DNA from: Comamonadaceae bacterium
GTDB taxonomy: Bacteria; Pseudomonadota; Gammaproteobacteria; Burkholderiales; Burkholderiaceae_C
Reading direction: 5' to 3'
DNA: 64,000 nt
NCBI GenBank assembly: GCA_027483665.1
Contig: JAIXUC010000033.1
Span: 62,001 to 126,000, forward strand
Positions 46,752 to 53,527 of this stretch are shown here, piece after piece (the stretch's first letter is position 1; the number at the start of each line of letters is the position of its first letter). A program made the translations under genes and the position numbers. The notes below the pieces were generated by a model. It made no database searches. It was not told the origin of the DNA and saw nothing but the letters and a program-made list of their open reading frames with translations.

Positions 46752-48098
46752 ATGTCCTGGAATTCGCTTGCTCGCTCCCCACGCCTCATGGCGAACATGG
46801 CTTGTTGCTTGCTGGTCGGAGCGTGGGCTCCAGCACACGCCGTGGTGGACGCCCTGGTTCAAGAGAGCGCCGCACTGGTTCAGGCGAACCAGCCGGCGAA
46901 GGCCTTTGAGTTGCTGTCCGCCCGCGAAGTCGAGCGCGCCGGGGACCCGGATTTCGACTTGGCGCTGGGCATCGCAGCCAACCAGAGCGGTGAGTTCACC
47001 CGGGCCATCTTTGCCCTGGAGCGGGTGCTGGCCGTGCAACCCGACAACACCCGCGCCAAGGCCGAACTGGCGCGTGCCTTGTTTTCCGTGGGCGATACGC
47101 GCAACGCCCGCACGCTGTTCGAGCAGTCGCGCGCTCAGGGCGTGCCGGTGGAAGTGGGGAGCGTGATTGATCAGTTTTTGCAGGCCATCGAGAAAGTCGA
47201 TGCTGAGGGGCGATCTTCCTGGCGCGGGCAGTTCGACCTGGGGCTTGGGCGAGACACCAACGTGACGGGCGGCCCGTCCAACGGTTTGGTGGCGGTCCCT
47301 GCGTTCGGCGGCATCGTGGTGTCCCTCAACCCCGGCGCGGTGGAACGAGCAGATTCCTATTTCTCGGCCAACCTCGGTTTGTCCGGCCGCTACGTGATGG
47401 ATGACCCGCGCTGGTCGCTGATCGGCAACGGCAACCTGGGCCTTCGCTCCTATCTGGATGTGGGTGGTTTTGATAGCCAGCAGATCAACATCAGCGGCGG
47501 CGTGGCCTATCGGGTCGAGCGCCACGAACTCAGCGCGGTGCTTCAGCTGGAAGACTATGACGTCAATGGCAACACCGCCCGGCGGCAGTCCGGCTTGGTC
47601 GGCGAGTGGCTCTACCGCTTCGACGCCTTCCGCCAGTTCGGCAGTTACCTCCAGTATTCACAGTTGACCTATCCAGGGCAATCCACCCGCGACACCGACC
47701 GCACCGTGCTCGGCGCCTCTTATGCCCACCTCTGGCGCAGTGGCCTGCTGGCCTACGGCGGCTTGTACCTCGGTCAGGAAGCAGCGCAGACCGCAGGCCA
47801 AGACTTCCAAGGCCACGAGCTGAGTGGTTTCCGTTTGGGCGTGCAGCAGCCGATGTCGGCCGATCTATCCCTGTTCGCCGCTTTGGCTTATGAGCGCCGC
47901 CGTTTTGATGGCCAAAACCCCCTGTTCCTGGTGACGCGCCGCGACCGGCAGACCAACGTCAATCTGGGCTTGAACTGGGTGGTGGCCAAGGCCTGGCGCC
48001 TAACGCCACAGGTGGCCCTGACGCGGAGCAGCTCAAACATTTCGCTCAACGACTACAAGCGCACGGTCTATTCCGTGAACCTGCGGCACGATTTCTGA
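46752..48098 (+). CDS. TPR plus outer-membrane beta-barrel protein (Slam/T11SS-like)
   Basis: A 448-residue predicted outer-membrane protein. A signal peptide (ANMACCLLVGAWAPAHA) is followed by a periplasmic TPR region (residues about 35-150, with PDFDLALGIAANQSGEF and DNTRAKAELARALFSVGDT), then about 14 amphipathic strands from residue 170, ending in a C-terminal Phe (VNLRHDF) as BAM substrates do. This architecture is that of Slam (DUF560) proteins, which export surface lipoproteins or hemophilin-like proteins. The first barrel strand region GQFDLGLGRDTNVTGGPS fits that family. It is 13 bases upstream of the FecR-domain gene. Slam identity is inferred, not proven. Confidence 0.7.
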   Translation: MSWNSLARSPRLMANMACCLLVGAWAPAHAVVDALVQESAALVQANQPAKAFELLSAREVERAGDPDFDLALGIAANQSGEFTRAIFALERVLAVQPDNTRAKAELARALFSVGDTRNARTLFEQSRAQGVPVEVGSVIDQFLQAIEKVDAEGRSSWRGQFDLGLGRDTNVTGGPSNGLVAVPAFGGIVVSLNPGAVERADSYFSANLGLSGRYVMDDPRWSLIGNGNLGLRSYLDVGGFDSQQINISGGVAYRVERHELSAVLQLEDYDVNGNTARRQSGLVGEWLYRFDAFRQFGSYLQYSQLTYPGQSTRDTDRTVLGASYAHLWRSGLLAYGGLYLGQEAAQTAGQDFQGHELSGFRLGVQQPMSADLSLFAALAYERRRFDGQNPLFLVTRRDRQTNVNLGLNWVVAKAWRLTPQVALTRSSSNISLNDYKRTVYSVNLRHDF

Positions 48099-48111
48099 CC
48101 AGGGGCACCCC

Positions 48112-49494
48112 ATGAACCCGAACTTTCCCTTGCAAAACGCCACGCTGCTGATTGCGCTGGCTTCCATCTATCCCTTGCAGGTGCACGCGGCTGCTGGCGT
48201 CGCGCAGTTTGCGGTGGGCGCGGTCAACGTGCAGCGCGGGGCCGGCATCGTGCCTTTGAGCAAGGGCCAAAGCGTGGAGAGCGGCGACACCATTTCTACC
48301 GGCCCAGGGTCGCAGGCTCAGGTGCGGTTCTCGGATGGCGGCTTGGTGGCCTTGCAGGCCAATACGCAGTTCGCCATCCGCAGTTACGCCGACCAAGGCA
48401 GCGGCGGCAATGCAGACAGCTTCATCGTCGACTTTCTGCAAGGCGGCATGCGCGCCATCACCGGGCTGATCGGCAAGCGCAGTGCGGCCAACTACAAGGT
48501 CAACACCAAAACCGCGACCATCGGCATCCGCGGCTCTGCCTTTGCTGCCAACTACAACACCGACGGCAGCCTGACCATCGGTGCCACGCAAGACGAGATC
48601 GTGGTTTGCACCAACGGAGGATGCACCAGCCTGACCGTGGGCGAAATCGCCCGTGTTGCTGCGGACAACTCCACGCCCACACGCACCAACGTCAGGACCA
48701 ACCTGCCACTGGTGGAAGTGCGGCAAGACCCGCAATTGGCGGGTAACCAAAGTGGGGCCAATGCGCCCGTGGCCATCGCATCTGGGCTCAGTGCGACTTT
48801 CGCGGTCAACGATGGCGGCTACTCAGGCAGCAGCATCCTGTCTAGCAGTTTCGATTTCCCCTTCTCGGACGGCACAGGTACCTTCACCGGTGGGCAGCTG
48901 GTGACCTACGATAACGAAAGTGAAGACGTGATCGTCGCCAAAGAGGGCAACCAACCTGGCAGCTTCTTCACCCTGGGGGCACCGGCCGACGCTGATTTCC
49001 TAGGCTGGGGCTACTGGATGAGCGGCTCGAAAACTGAAGGGTACTCAGGCACTTCAGCGCTCACCGACGTGCACTATGTGGTGGGCAGGCCCACGCCCAG
49101 CGTGTCGATGCCCACGACCGGCACGGCGTCATACGCTTTGGTCGGTGGCACGGCACCCACCGCCAACAACGGGGGCACCTTGCTCACGGGGCAGTTGGTG
49201 AGTGCTGGCCTCGAGGTCGACTTTGGTGCCAATCAAGTGAGCGTAGAGGTCAACACCCGCTTCTCCTCTGGCGGCAGCACCATCGACGTGCCCATCACCG
49301 GCAGCGCGGGTATTTCCGGCTCGACCTTCGGCTGCGGGGGGTCAACGCGCATCAGCGGTATCTTCACGGGCGTGTTGGCCGCGCGCGCGGGTCTTGTCTA
49401 CCTTAAGGAGGGCACGCCTGTCGGTACCGTGTCAGGTGCAGCGGGTTTCGTGCAGAGCAGCAGCACTGGGCTTGCTGTCAGCCTTCCTAATTGA
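48112..49494 (+). CDS. FecR-domain secreted protein with TbpB-like C-terminal barrel
   Basis: A 460-residue protein. Signal peptide 1-26 (ending QVHA, no lipobox). FecR-like domain at about 35-185, with LSKGQSVESGDTISTGPGS, VRFSDGGLVALQANTQFAI and TATIGIRGSAF. A middle region of about 140 residues is unrecognised. The C-terminal segment (about 335-460) contains ISGIFTGVLAARAGLVYLKE and VSGAAGFVQ, like the eight-stranded barrel of transferrin-binding-protein-B-like Slam substrates. Being in a 13-base operon with a Slam-like barrel protein suggests it is the cargo. A heme or iron role is possible but not shown. Confidence 0.75.
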   Translation: MNPNFPLQNATLLIALASIYPLQVHAAAGVAQFAVGAVNVQRGAGIVPLSKGQSVESGDTISTGPGSQAQVRFSDGGLVALQANTQFAIRSYADQGSGGNADSFIVDFLQGGMRAITGLIGKRSAANYKVNTKTATIGIRGSAFAANYNTDGSLTIGATQDEIVVCTNGGCTSLTVGEIARVAADNSTPTRTNVRTNLPLVEVRQDPQLAGNQSGANAPVAIASGLSATFAVNDGGYSGSSILSSSFDFPFSDGTGTFTGGQLVTYDNESEDVIVAKEGNQPGSFFTLGAPADADFLGWGYWMSGSKTEGYSGTSALTDVHYVVGRPTPSVSMPTTGTASYALVGGTAPTANNGGTLLTGQLVSAGLEVDFGANQVSVEVNTRFSSGGSTIDVPITGSAGISGSTFGCGGSTRISGIFTGVLAARAGLVYLKEGTPVGTVSGAAGFVQSSSTGLAVSLPN

Positions 49495-49503
49495 CGCCGG
49501 CCC

Positions 49504-50484
49504 TCAGCCGAGGTAATTGCGCAGCACTGCCTGGTTGGCAGCATCTCCTTGCAAGTGGATAGCCCTTTGTCGGGCGTTTTCGCCAAGCGCCATACGCAGG
49601 GCCGAGTTGTCTTGCAAGCCAGTCAGTGCCTGTATGGCCTGCTCCTGCGTCTGGAACAGCACCGCGTCATGCCCATGCTTCAACGAAGAGGCATATCCAC
49701 CGCTCCCGTGCGCCACCAGGGGCAGGCCGCTGGCCATGGCCTCGAATACCACTCGGGCCGATGGCTCGGCCCAAGTGGTGCGATAGAAAAACACGTCCAA
49801 GCTGGCGAGGAAGTCGGCCACCGGCTCTGCCCCCGATGGCAGGCACTCCAGTCCGGGCAACGCGCCCAGCGTTTCGAGCAAGCAAGTTGCACCCATCAGG
49901 CGAACCCTCCAGCCACTGGCCACCAGTTGTCGGTAGAGAGGCACGTCGTGGACATGGTGTTTTTCAAGGACATCTCGGCTGTGCCGCCCGAGTGTGGGGG
50001 CGCGCGTGGGGCGCCGAACAGGTATCGCCAGAAATGGGCTCAGTTCCATCCAGCTGAGCTCGACACGCCCCGGCAGCCCGACAGAGGCCTGCATGGCCGG
50101 AGACACGAACACCAGCTCCGGCTCCAGGCCCGCGACAGCACGTATCTGCGCCATCCGCTCGAACAGGCGCCGGTGGTCTGGCAAGTTGTAATGAAGGGCG
50201 ACGCGGCGCAGACCAGCATCCGCCAACCAAGGGCCCAAGACCACATGCACACCCGTCACAAGCAGCATGCCGCCACGTGGGAACTCGCCGGCCTCTGGGC
50301 GAATACAGCGAACGCCTCGGGCTGCAAAGAGGGGATGCGGCGGCACCGTCGACCAGGCCTGCACAGGTCTGAGCGGCGCAAGGGCCTCGCCCAAGGCCAG
50401 GCGACCCAACTCAGCGCCGGTGAATGGGTCGTCGAACCGGCCCAAGATGTGCAGCGGCTCGGTATGGGGCGGTGCCTTAGTCAT
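49504..50484 (-). CDS. GT4-like glycosyltransferase
   Basis: A 326-residue GT-B glycosyltransferase. The C-terminal half has DVFFYRTTWAEPSARVVFEAMASGLPLVAHGSGG, the donor-binding E-x7-E type motif of GT4. The N-terminal half is poorly conserved. No signal peptide or membrane span is visible. It converges on the FecR gene (9-base gap) and diverges from the TPR-GT41 gene across an 80-base region with a perfect inverted repeat. Donor and acceptor unknown. Confidence 0.75.
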   Translation of the reverse strand: MTKAPPHTEPLHILGRFDDPFTGAELGRLALGEALAPLRPVQAWSTVPPHPLFAARGVRCIRPEAGEFPRGGMLLVTGVHVVLGPWLADAGLRRVALHYNLPDHRRLFERMAQIRAVAGLEPELVFVSPAMQASVGLPGRVELSWMELSPFLAIPVRRPTRAPTLGRHSRDVLEKHHVHDVPLYRQLVASGWRVRLMGATCLLETLGALPGLECLPSGAEPVADFLASLDVFFYRTTWAEPSARVVFEAMASGLPLVAHGSGGYASSLKHGHDAVLFQTQEQAIQALTGLQDNSALRMALGENARQRAIHLQGDAANQAVLRNYLG

Positions 50485-50564: not shown

Positions 50565-52712
50565 GTGAACACCACTCCCATCGACACCCTGCTGCTGCAA
50601 GCGCAGCAAGCCCTTCAAGCGGGCCAGCCCGAGGCCGCCCTGCCCTTCCTGCAACAAGCCCTGGCGCAGCAGCCGCATCGGCCGGACCTGCGGGTGCAAT
50701 GCGCAGCCATCCTCGGTGTGCTGCAACAGCCGCAAGCGGCCCACCAGTTGATGCTGCAGGCACGAGAGCAGCTTCTTGGCGACGCCGACGGGGCCTGCAA
50801 CCTCGCCATCACCGCAGAGGCCGCCGGCCTGGTGGGCGACGCCATTGAGTGGTACCGACATGCCCTCAGCCTGCAGCCCCAGCACGTGCGGGCCTTGACC
50901 AACCTGTCGGCACTCGCTGCAGCCGCGCACCAATGGCCAGAAGCCGTCACGCTGGCGCAGCAGGCCCGGGCCTTGTCCCCAGGGGATATGGGTTTGTGGC
51001 TCAACGTGTGTGATTTCCTTACCGGCAGCGGTCGGGAAGACGAGGCCCTGGCCAGCATCGAAGAAGCCTGCCATCGCTTTCCCGATGACGAGCGGCTGGC
51101 CATTCGCCGGGTGGTCGCCAGCAGCCTGGCTGGTCGGTGGCAGGAAGGCGAGCGGCTGCTGGCCGGGTTGGGTACTTCAGCGGCCAGACAGCTCGATGCC
51201 ATGCTGCGCGGGCGGGCGCGGCCTGGGCCTGAGTCCAAGGCCAACGTGGCCTGGTACCCCCTGGATCTGCGGGAGCTGTTCTTGGCGCATGTGTTTGAGC
51301 GCCTGCGCCGGGCAGACACCCGACAGGCGGAGCTGGCCGGACGATTGATTGGCGAGTTGCTGGCCGAGTTCAATGCCCAGCCAGGCCCACGCGATTGGCG
51401 CGACGTGCAGTTCCATGCCTTGCAGCTGCCGGTGGACGAGGCGACACAGCGCGGCTTGTGGCACGCCACCATGCTCACGCTGCGCAACCGTGTCGAGGCT
51501 GTGGACATACCGCCAGTGGCCCGCCGTCTGCAGGCCGAGGGCCCGGTCAGGGTGGGCTTGGCCTTACCGCCCTTGCGCGACGAACGCCGCATCGACCACC
51601 TGATTTGCCAACTGAGCCTGCATGACCGCCAACACTTTCGCTTTTTCGTGTACTTGTCCGAACCGCGCCAACGCTTTGCGGCGGCGCAAACGCTGGACGA
51701 TCTGGGCGTGGGCTGCATCGGCATCGACCACTTCAGCGTGGTGGAGGCAGTGCAGCGCATTCGGCTCGACGAGTTGGACGTCTTTGTCGACTGGACCTTC
51801 TACGACCCATCTTGTCGATCAGAAATCTTGAACAGCCGCGTGGCACCCGTGCACATGCGCCACCAAAGTTGGCACCGCCACCAGGCCACAGCCGCAGGTC
51901 CGCAGGTTGTAGCCCCTTGCGAGTACACGGTGGGCGATGCCTTCACGCACCCGGGCACCGAGCCGGCCTCCATTCAGGCGGAGTTTGGCGCCGTGGTGCG
52001 GTTTCCCGGTAGTTGCTGGTTGGCCATGCCACCCTCAGTTCAGCCCGCGCCCCGCAATGCAGCGCGTCGCGCAGCCGTGGGGTTGCCTGAGCAAGCCTGC
52101 GTCATGGCCGCCTGGATGCCGGCTCTCTATATAGATAACGCGAGCTTTGCGGCCTGGTGCCAAGTGCTGAGAGAGCAAGCCCACACCCTGCTGTGGCTGC
52201 CGCCCATGCCCATCGACACCGCGGCCAACCTCAGGCTAAGGGCTCAGGCGCACGGGGTGGCTGCAGAACGCCTGGTATTCGCCCAACCTGCACCACGGCT
52301 GCAACTGCTGACCGACCTTTGCCAGGCCGACCTGTTTGTCGACAGCACCCGCTACAGCGCAAGCGCCGCACTGGCCGACGCGCTGCATCTGGGCCTGCCT
52401 GCGTTGGCCTTTGGCGGCGGGCTCATGCCGTCTCGGTTGGGTGGCAGCCTGCTGCATGCGGCCGGGCTGGGCGATCAGGTGAGCAACAGCATCGAAGACT
52501 ATGCGGCCCGTCTGGGCAGGCTGTGCTCCGATGCATCGGAGCGGCAGCGCCTGTCCGAGCGCTTGCAGCGGTTGCGCAGCGAAGGCGCAACCCCGCTGTT
52601 TCAGCCCGAGCAACAGGTGCGCCACTGGGAGCTGGCCTGGGCCGAGATGGCTCGCCGGCAACGCAGCGGGCTGGCGCACACCGCGTTCGACGTGGAAGCG
52701 CTGAAGCCATGA
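50565..52712 (+). CDS. TPR-GT41 glycosyltransferase (SPINDLY/OGT-like)
   Basis: A 715-residue protein starting with GTG. TPR repeats fill residues 1 to about 160 (EAALPFLQQALAQQPHRPDLRVQC; DAIEWYRHALSLQPQHVRALTN). The C-terminal part (about 290-700) resembles the catalytic lobes of O-GlcNAc transferases and SPINDLY proteins: YFVD-like DLFVDSTRYSASAALADAL, LGLPALAFGG and PSRLGGSLLHAAGLGD. The usual H-x-P-x-Q-x-x-x-G-x-P-x-T-x-G loop is degenerate (RVAPVHMRHQSWHRHQATA), so it may have another donor or be a divergent enzyme. These enzymes often glycosylate proteins such as flagellin or adhesins. The start lacks a clear ribosome site. It overlaps the GT2 gene by 3-4 bases (ATGA). Confidence 0.75.
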   Translation: MNTTPIDTLLLQAQQALQAGQPEAALPFLQQALAQQPHRPDLRVQCAAILGVLQQPQAAHQLMLQAREQLLGDADGACNLAITAEAAGLVGDAIEWYRHALSLQPQHVRALTNLSALAAAAHQWPEAVTLAQQARALSPGDMGLWLNVCDFLTGSGREDEALASIEEACHRFPDDERLAIRRVVASSLAGRWQEGERLLAGLGTSAARQLDAMLRGRARPGPESKANVAWYPLDLRELFLAHVFERLRRADTRQAELAGRLIGELLAEFNAQPGPRDWRDVQFHALQLPVDEATQRGLWHATMLTLRNRVEAVDIPPVARRLQAEGPVRVGLALPPLRDERRIDHLICQLSLHDRQHFRFFVYLSEPRQRFAAAQTLDDLGVGCIGIDHFSVVEAVQRIRLDELDVFVDWTFYDPSCRSEILNSRVAPVHMRHQSWHRHQATAAGPQVVAPCEYTVGDAFTHPGTEPASIQAEFGAVVRFPGSCWLAMPPSVQPAPRNAARRAAVGLPEQACVMAAWMPALYIDNASFAAWCQVLREQAHTLLWLPPMPIDTAANLRLRAQAHGVAAERLVFAQPAPRLQLLTDLCQADLFVDSTRYSASAALADALHLGLPALAFGGGLMPSRLGGSLLHAAGLGDQVSNSIEDYAARLGRLCSDASERQRLSERLQRLRSEGATPLFQPEQQVRHWELAWAEMARRQRSGLAHTAFDVEALKP

Positions 52713-53527
52713 CCGGTACACCGCCCTGGATCACCGCCGTCACAGTGTGCAAAGGCCGCCTGCATCAGCTGCTGCAGGTGTTGCCTGAGCGGCAAGTGGA
52801 CGGCATGCGGCAGATCGTGGTGGACAGCAACTGCCCGGACGGCACGGCCCAGCGGCTGGCAGAGGACTTCCCCTGGGTGGAGGTGGTTCGCCACGACGAT
52901 GCGGGCCGGTTCAACCTGGCGCGTGCGCGCAATGCCGGTGCAGCACTGGCCACCACAGATTGGCTGGCCTTTCTGGATGCAGACGGCCAGGTGCCTAGCT
53001 CTGAATGGTCGCGCTGGAAAGGCTTGGTCCAACCCGACCACCATTTCCGCATGGCAATCCGCCGTTCGTCGCTGTTTGGCTCGGCACTGGTACCCAAGGC
53101 TTTTTTTGTGGCCATTGGAGGCTATGACGACGTGATGGAGGGTTGGGGCGCAGAAGACACCGACCTCTACGCCCGACTTGTTATGGCAGGCTGCGCTGGC
53201 GCTGAGCTGGGACCTCACACAGCCCGCCCAGTTGAACATGACGATGACATGCGCACCGCCCACTACACGGAACCAGACCATCTGCGCAGTCAGCGTCAGA
53301 ACACGCTCTACTCGCAGATCAAGCAGGACCTGCTGCGGCATTTCGGCACGCACCACCTGCCAAGGGAAAGCCGCCAGCGGCTGTATGAACAAGTACAAGC
53401 AGCGTTGGCTTCCAGCCACGATGGCAGTGCTTGGCTCGACCTGAAACTGCCGCCGCCGGCCATGGTGTTGCCAGGCCTGTCGCTGCGCCGGACTTGGCAT
53501 TACGAGCTGGTGCGCAACGACGGGTGA
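52709..53527 (+). CDS. GT2-like glycosyltransferase (Glyco_transf_7C type)
   Basis: A 272-residue GT-A fold glycosyltransferase. The N-terminal ITAVTVCKGRLHQLLQVLP, the metal-binding DADG and the galactosyltransferase-type IGGYDDVMEGWGAEDTDLY are visible. It is cytosolic with no membrane span. Its ATG overlaps the GT41 stop codon, so they are co-translated and probably act on the same acceptor. The target is unknown; a glycoprotein or surface polysaccharide is equally possible. Confidence 0.85.
   Translation: MTGTPPWITAVTVCKGRLHQLLQVLPERQVDGMRQIVVDSNCPDGTAQRLAEDFPWVEVVRHDDAGRFNLARARNAGAALATTDWLAFLDADGQVPSSEWSRWKGLVQPDHHFRMAIRRSSLFGSALVPKAFFVAIGGYDDVMEGWGAEDTDLYARLVMAGCAGAELGPHTARPVEHDDDMRTAHYTEPDHLRSQRQNTLYSQIKQDLLRHFGTHHLPRESRQRLYEQVQAALASSHDGSAWLDLKLPPPAMVLPGLSLRRTWHYELVRNDG

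Follow-up and report, generated by a model that had tools for sequence, protein, structure and literature searches.

A probable type 11 (Slam) secretion pair with a FecR-bearing predicted cargo in a Comamonadaceae bacterium

Two adjacent genes in the window (the whole stretch of DNA analysed here, 64,000 nucleotides from a Comamonadaceae bacterium) raise the question of whether an outer-membrane protein with TPR repeats and the FecR-domain protein encoded directly after it form a translocon and its cargo. We approached the question by placing each protein in a family, by examining how far the gene pair is conserved and by considering the genes that follow it.

A Slam family protein and its predicted cargo

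The first gene and its parts were defined as follows.

46752..48098, plus strand: Slam/DUF560 (T11SS) outer-membrane protein, 448 aa (PF04575; AlphaFold2 model; C-terminal F)
About aa 1-30 of the same protein: N-terminal signal
46851..47207, plus strand: periplasmic TPR domain, aa 34-152 (TPR_19, E 3e-8; helices 34-152 in the model)
47217..48095, plus strand: beta-barrel, aa 156-448, predicted to have 14 strands and ending in F (14 long strands modelled; SlipAM match over aa 223-448)

The 448-aa protein is a member of the Slam/DUF560 family, as given by a SlipAM match that passed the curated Pfam cut-off (PF04575, E 1.1e-10, 41.9 bits with a cut-off of 22), by its TPR part and by its fourteen strands. 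TPR repeats were also found with Pfam, the match to the TPR_Slam model being weak and below its cut-off. In the AlphaFold2 model, which was built on an alignment of 44 sequences and has a mean pLDDT of 92, helices at residues 34-152 are followed by fourteen long strands at residues 156-447, the barrel blocks being mostly above pLDDT 90. The protein ends in ...LRHDF, and a terminal F is typical of outer-membrane barrels. The original prediction of a TPR and beta-barrel protein with a terminal Phe is therefore confirmed by Pfam, the model and this last residue, and the barrel, which was to be compared with Slam by model and profile, does belong to that family. When the model was compared with solved structures using Foldseek, no Slam structure was found among them; the nearest were two polysaccharide exporters that also combine TPRs with a barrel, BcsC and PelB, and porins, OmpG among them. 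Searches of the PDB with the single sequence of either protein returned TPR or chance matches only. The layout of TPRs and a 14-stranded barrel with PF04575 is shared with the known T11SS proteins (N. meningitidis Slam1/2, X. nematophila NilB/HrpB), as is a neighboring cargo gene with a C-terminal eight-stranded barrel, which in the window is a modelled one.

The second gene starts after a gap of exactly 13 nt (48099-48111), just as the original prediction had placed the Slam-like gene 13 bases upstream. Its parts are listed below.

48112..49494, plus strand: FecR-barrel protein P0002 of 460 aa, predicted cargo, its gene separated from the upstream Slam gene by 13 nt
48112..48189, plus strand: Sec/SPI-type signal peptide without lipobox, aa 1-26 (inspection of the sequence)
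48190..48687, plus strand: FecR domain with beta-rich extension, aa 27-192 (PF04773, E 1.9e-12; structural match to 4m0h and 6ovk)
48769..48984, plus strand: handle/pedestal region preceding the barrel, aa 220-291 (AlphaFold2 strands, lower confidence; match to the TbpB C-lobe 5kkx)
49000..49479, plus strand: C-terminal TbpB/NHBA-type barrel, aa 297-456 (block pLDDT about 88-98; Foldseek; hhalign)

The N-terminus of P0002 reads MNPNFPLQNATLLIALASIYPLQVHA and then AA, which was judged by inspection to be a Sec/SPI-type signal of the cleavable type. Together with the PF04773 match (E 1.9e-12), this agrees with the signal peptide and FecR domain first described, and with Foldseek the N-terminal part of the model was matched to the FecR-type protein BDI_1681 (4m0h, 2e-5) and to PupR (6ovk). 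The cargo had also been said to lack a lipobox, unlike classical Slam substrates; the lack itself was found throughout the aligned cargo sequences (lipobox in 0/39), but non-lipidated cargo is already known from the haemophilins.

A weak resemblance to the LapA/MpAFP retention module was seen in the N-part of the FecR region (window 48190-48387). The corresponding model, NF033682, matched 39/39 aligned cargo sequences (best 3.3e-10), and in P0002 it scored 17.6 bits against a cut-off of 50, with a PDB match to 5ix9 at E 1.6e-4; the resemblance does not extend beyond the N-part of FecR.

The cargo was modelled with AlphaFold2 from an alignment of 39 sequences, giving a mean pLDDT of 85 and values of about 88-98 in the C-terminal barrel. 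The best PDB match of the model (Foldseek) was the TbpB C-lobe at 5.7e-7, then TbpB and LbpB, with further matches below 1e-3 to HphA, haemophilin, fHbp and NHBA, all of them solved Slam/T11SS substrates or their kin. The NHBA domain aligned with a TMt of 0.59-0.64, and whole-query TM-scores were low, which probably reflects a different placement of the domains and an alignment over part of the protein only. Pfam TbpB_B_D (PF01298) gave no match in P0002 itself, so that homology of the barrel rests on profile-profile comparison and on fold. An hhalign comparison of the cargo barrel alignment with an independent set of TbpB-type barrels without FecR gave E 1.4e-5 (probability 80), the controls (FecR part, Slam barrel and ten column shuffles) all giving E 0.34 or worse. 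An iterated barrel profile built from the FecR-barrel cargo family only also reached Pfam TbpB_B_D proteins that adjoin other Slams, PF01298 passed its own cut-off within the FecR cargo region of one other genome (G079), and NF041636, 'Slam-dependent surface lipoprotein', matched the C-terminus of P0002 below its cut-off (E 6.7e-6, 26.5 bits, cut-off 80). By predicted fold and by profile, then, the C-terminus is assigned to the TbpB/haemophilin barrel type, and the suggested AlphaFold comparison with TbpB barrels came out as a TbpB/haemophilin/NHBA fold.

Among the closest counterparts are the haemophilins HphA, HrpC and Hpl, which are likewise non-lipidated T11SS cargo with an SPI signal, no lipobox and a single C-terminal handle and barrel, but the window cargo carries an additional FecR domain, some 165 aa long, at its N-terminus, and identity in the structural alignments is 12-19%. 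With the lipidated Slam substrates TbpB, LbpB, fHbp and NHBA it shares the handle-barrel fold and, in its relatives, repeated lobes of up to 4 copies; unlike them, it lacks a lipobox, and FecR stands where they have a lipidated N-domain.

Conservation of the pair and the Slam tree

GTDB genomes were scanned with the Slam alignment and 80 named loci were kept as the closest relatives of the window's Slam, coming from Polaromonas, Acidovorax, Ramlibacter, Rhodocyclaceae, Nitrosomonadales and others. Counted by domain position, the gene next after Slam is a FecR gene in 78/80 of them, the exceptions being L206, where the contig ends, and L212; a gene order repeated this often makes the pairing more than chance. 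As the 80 loci are the nearest relatives, a less selected test was made on 274 genomes from across the class, with a Slam-only profile and a barrel-only profile (no FecR). There were 29 matches to the barrel profile, 24 of them within 4 kb of a same-strand Slam match and 23 of those 24 downstream of it. FecR also adjoins nearly all of the further Slam loci retrieved from across the class, though not the distant Slams L318-L321. A second Slam/FecR-barrel pair lies in the same genome (G000:C43:179921-182664, locus L033, C43:176000-188000), outside the window on the same contig and about 70 kb away. The genome survey that had been suggested as a check therefore shows that the pair recurs, and that the FecR fusion, first described as unusual, is the rule of this Slam lineage and not an oddity of one genome. 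The FecR-linked Slam/cargo pair is a conserved two-gene unit across many environmental proteobacteria.

A tree of 128 Slams, made by a quick method, separated almost all FecR-linked Slams from those of the TbpB type and the rest; support for the dividing branch is moderate (78) and that for the next inner branch is 96. The window's Slam falls in the FecR-linked part and does not group with the TbpB-type (cluster 1, animal-associated) Slams. Some sequences break the pattern: L083_8843 has FecR yet falls on the TbpB-type side; L125, L129, L133 and L302 (the last cut by a contig end) lie among the FecR-linked Slams without FecR; and in L099 the FecR gene lies on the other strand from Slam. The window's Slam thus differs from the known T11SS proteins in being mostly apart from the TbpB-type Slams and in having a cargo with FecR. 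Cluster 1 loci are reported with TonB receptors and haem genes, and the locus in the window has glycosyltransferases instead.

T11SS cargo has been described as lipidated or soluble with a C-terminal eight-stranded barrel (PMC8406197, PMC12282271), nine DUF560 clusters out of ten are stated to be likely transporters of cargo not yet known (PMC8406197), and clusters 1 and 3 have been surveyed (PMC12282271). FecR is absent from the main texts of both papers, and a literature search, with supplementary tables outside it, found no paper that links FecR with Slam, T11SS or DUF560. The proposal of a possible undescribed T11SS branch is supported to the extent that these Slams are mostly separate in the tree and are not discussed in the T11SS papers cited here, but the split itself has a support of only 78.

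The translocon family, the cargo fold and the conserved adjacency argue for the translocon/cargo pair of the original prediction at the level of sequence and predicted structure, and we consider the products of the two genes to be probable partners in type 11 (Slam) secretion, namely a translocon and its non-lipidated surface cargo. In the translocon, a TPR arm in the periplasm would be joined to an outer-membrane barrel of 14 strands. The cargo, presumably recognised by its own barrel, would cross the Slam barrel unfolded and fold outside, a mechanism assumed from liposome work in which Slam1 alone moves unfolded TbpB, with Skp helping (PMC9090332). The FecR domain would stand in for the usual ligand-binding N-domain and for the lipid anchor, and may serve either as an effector or binding domain outside the cell or to hold the protein at the outer membrane. 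Such a pair would give a specific and widespread cargo family to a Slam lineage of soil, water and sludge bacteria, and would allow the cargo of an exporter branch, previously unknown, to be tested in non-pathogens, Polaromonas for example. By the same token, many proteins whose only annotation is 'FecR domain-containing' may be exported surface proteins and not regulators.

Glycosyltransferase genes downstream of the cargo gene

Conserved glycosyltransferase genes follow the pair, a feature absent from the original prediction and added here.

49504..50484, minus strand: GT4-type glycosyltransferase, convergent with the cargo gene (PF00534, E 3.6e-11)
50565..52712, plus strand: TPR and GT41 (O-GlcNAc-transferase-like) glycosyltransferase, candidate third partner (PF13844, E 7.1e-18)

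The GT4-type protein matched 18 ORFs in the related loci by blastp, on the minus strand and before the GT41 gene where inspected. The order cargo-GT4-GT41 is repeated in Polaromonas loci L136, L137, L140, L144 and L150, whose GT41 proteins are 35-38% identical to that of the window. A GT2/GT7C-type glycosyltransferase ORF comes directly after the GT41 gene (window 52709-53527, plus strand); no relative of it was found in the 80 related loci.

The GT41 enzyme may act on the cargo in the cytoplasm and glycosylate it in the way HMW1C does HMW1, a step that stands outside our estimate for the pair. The locus would then be a three-partner system in which the cargo is glycosylated before export and becomes a surface glycoprotein like HMW1; this extends the secretion-pair reading, with which its likelihood overlaps, and we regard it as possible but somewhat doubtful. 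In its favor, a GT41 gene is found downstream of the cargo gene in 36/80 loci, on the same strand in 36/36 and at a distance of 0.9-6.7 kb, and the window's GT41 gene is the only PF13844 gene in its own genome. When only loci with 6 kb of room or more are counted, GT41 was found in 31/50 with a barrel and 0/9 without (p 5e-4, kinship ignored). There is also the precedent of HMW1C, a GT41 enzyme that serves a secreted adhesin as its third partner (PMC3983070), and a possible glycosylation of cargo has been suggested by the authors of a T11SS study (PMC12282271). On the other hand, GT41 genes are common in the order (109/200 genomes), N-X-S/T sequons are not clearly enriched in the cargo (172 observed, 155 expected), and the enzyme may modify another protein. 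The likeness to HMW1A-HMW1B-HMW1C two-partner secretion lies in an exporter, an exported protein and a GT41 enzyme being encoded together; unlike that system, the exporter is of Slam type and not TpsB, the GT41 protein has TPRs and not the AAD domain of HMW1C, and the glycosylation is hypothetical. The locus would bring to T11SS cargo an N-terminal domain new to it, FecR, as well as a candidate modifying enzyme.

A fuller version, which we hold to be unlikely, is a three-partner T11SS branch of environmental proteobacteria in which GT41 would glycosylate the cargo in the cytoplasm, Slam would export it barrel first and the N-terminal FecR domain would fold in the periplasm and stay there as a retention plug or anchor. 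If true, FecR would keep a T11SS cargo on the cell surface with no lipid, much as the LapA retention module might be compared.

Partners without a barrel and the place of FecR

The FecR domain is more constant than the barrel among the Slam partners, and the partners with FecR and no barrel are the main point against a simple cargo model. A barrel was present in 60/73 complete FecR partners, five of the 60 having two to four copies, and about a sixth of FecR partners have no detectable barrel. Acidovorax and Ramlibacter partners (L154-L162) carry a Pro-rich tail in its place, and those of L291, L292, L295 and L322 are short and FecR-only; in L287, L288, L316 and L324 the profile found no barrel, and a divergent one appears to be present when the sequence is read. 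Other partners do lack a barrel. Since some FecR partners lack a detectable barrel, the barrel cannot explain the whole pairing, and either some lineages have lost it or FecR contributes to the partnership in its own right.

These partners bear on an alternative in which the FecR protein works in the periplasm as an accessory subunit, bound to the TPR arm or to the cell wall and acting as a gate for the Slam barrel, its own barrel tail being optional and the true cargo lying elsewhere or being, for example, a glycan. The constancy of FecR (78/80 loci, as against a barrel in 60/73 complete partners), the existence of FecR-only partners, the resemblance of the TPR-barrel layout to the polysaccharide exporters BcsC and PelB and the nearby glycosyltransferase genes all fit such a subunit. 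Most partners, however, carry the module common to solved T11SS cargo, a barrel-only cargo adjoins a Slam of the FecR-linked branch (L125), and two to four barrel copies in some partners suit a passenger better than a gate, which leaves this explanation improbable.

Regulators of the FecR kind carry an anti-sigma domain in the cytoplasm, together with a membrane helix. A role of P0002 as a cell-surface signalling regulator of the FecR/FecI type, sensing through the barrel protein, was rejected as very improbable: it would account for the FecR-type fold and the structural match to the PupR signalling domain, but P0002 has a signal peptide directly before FecR, a cargo-type barrel and no anti-sigma domain, its partner barrel is of the Slam type and not a TonB-dependent receptor, and the adjacent ORFs examined in the window encode a dehydrogenase and glycosyltransferases, with no sigma factor gene among them.

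Two observations concern the barrel proteins at large. In L306 (6638-8137, minus strand) and L307 (6688-8031, minus strand), barrel proteins occur without FecR and with no Slam gene nearby, and are either orphan cargo or cargo served from elsewhere. Tandem handle-barrel units, three to four of them, were seen at L170:11486-15403, L041:6338-10792, L095:376-5130 and L210:1719-4724, the multi-barrel FecR cargo (or a split frame of it) reaching about 1500 aa; with up to 4 barrels per cargo, these repeats exceed the two lobes of TbpB and extend its plan.
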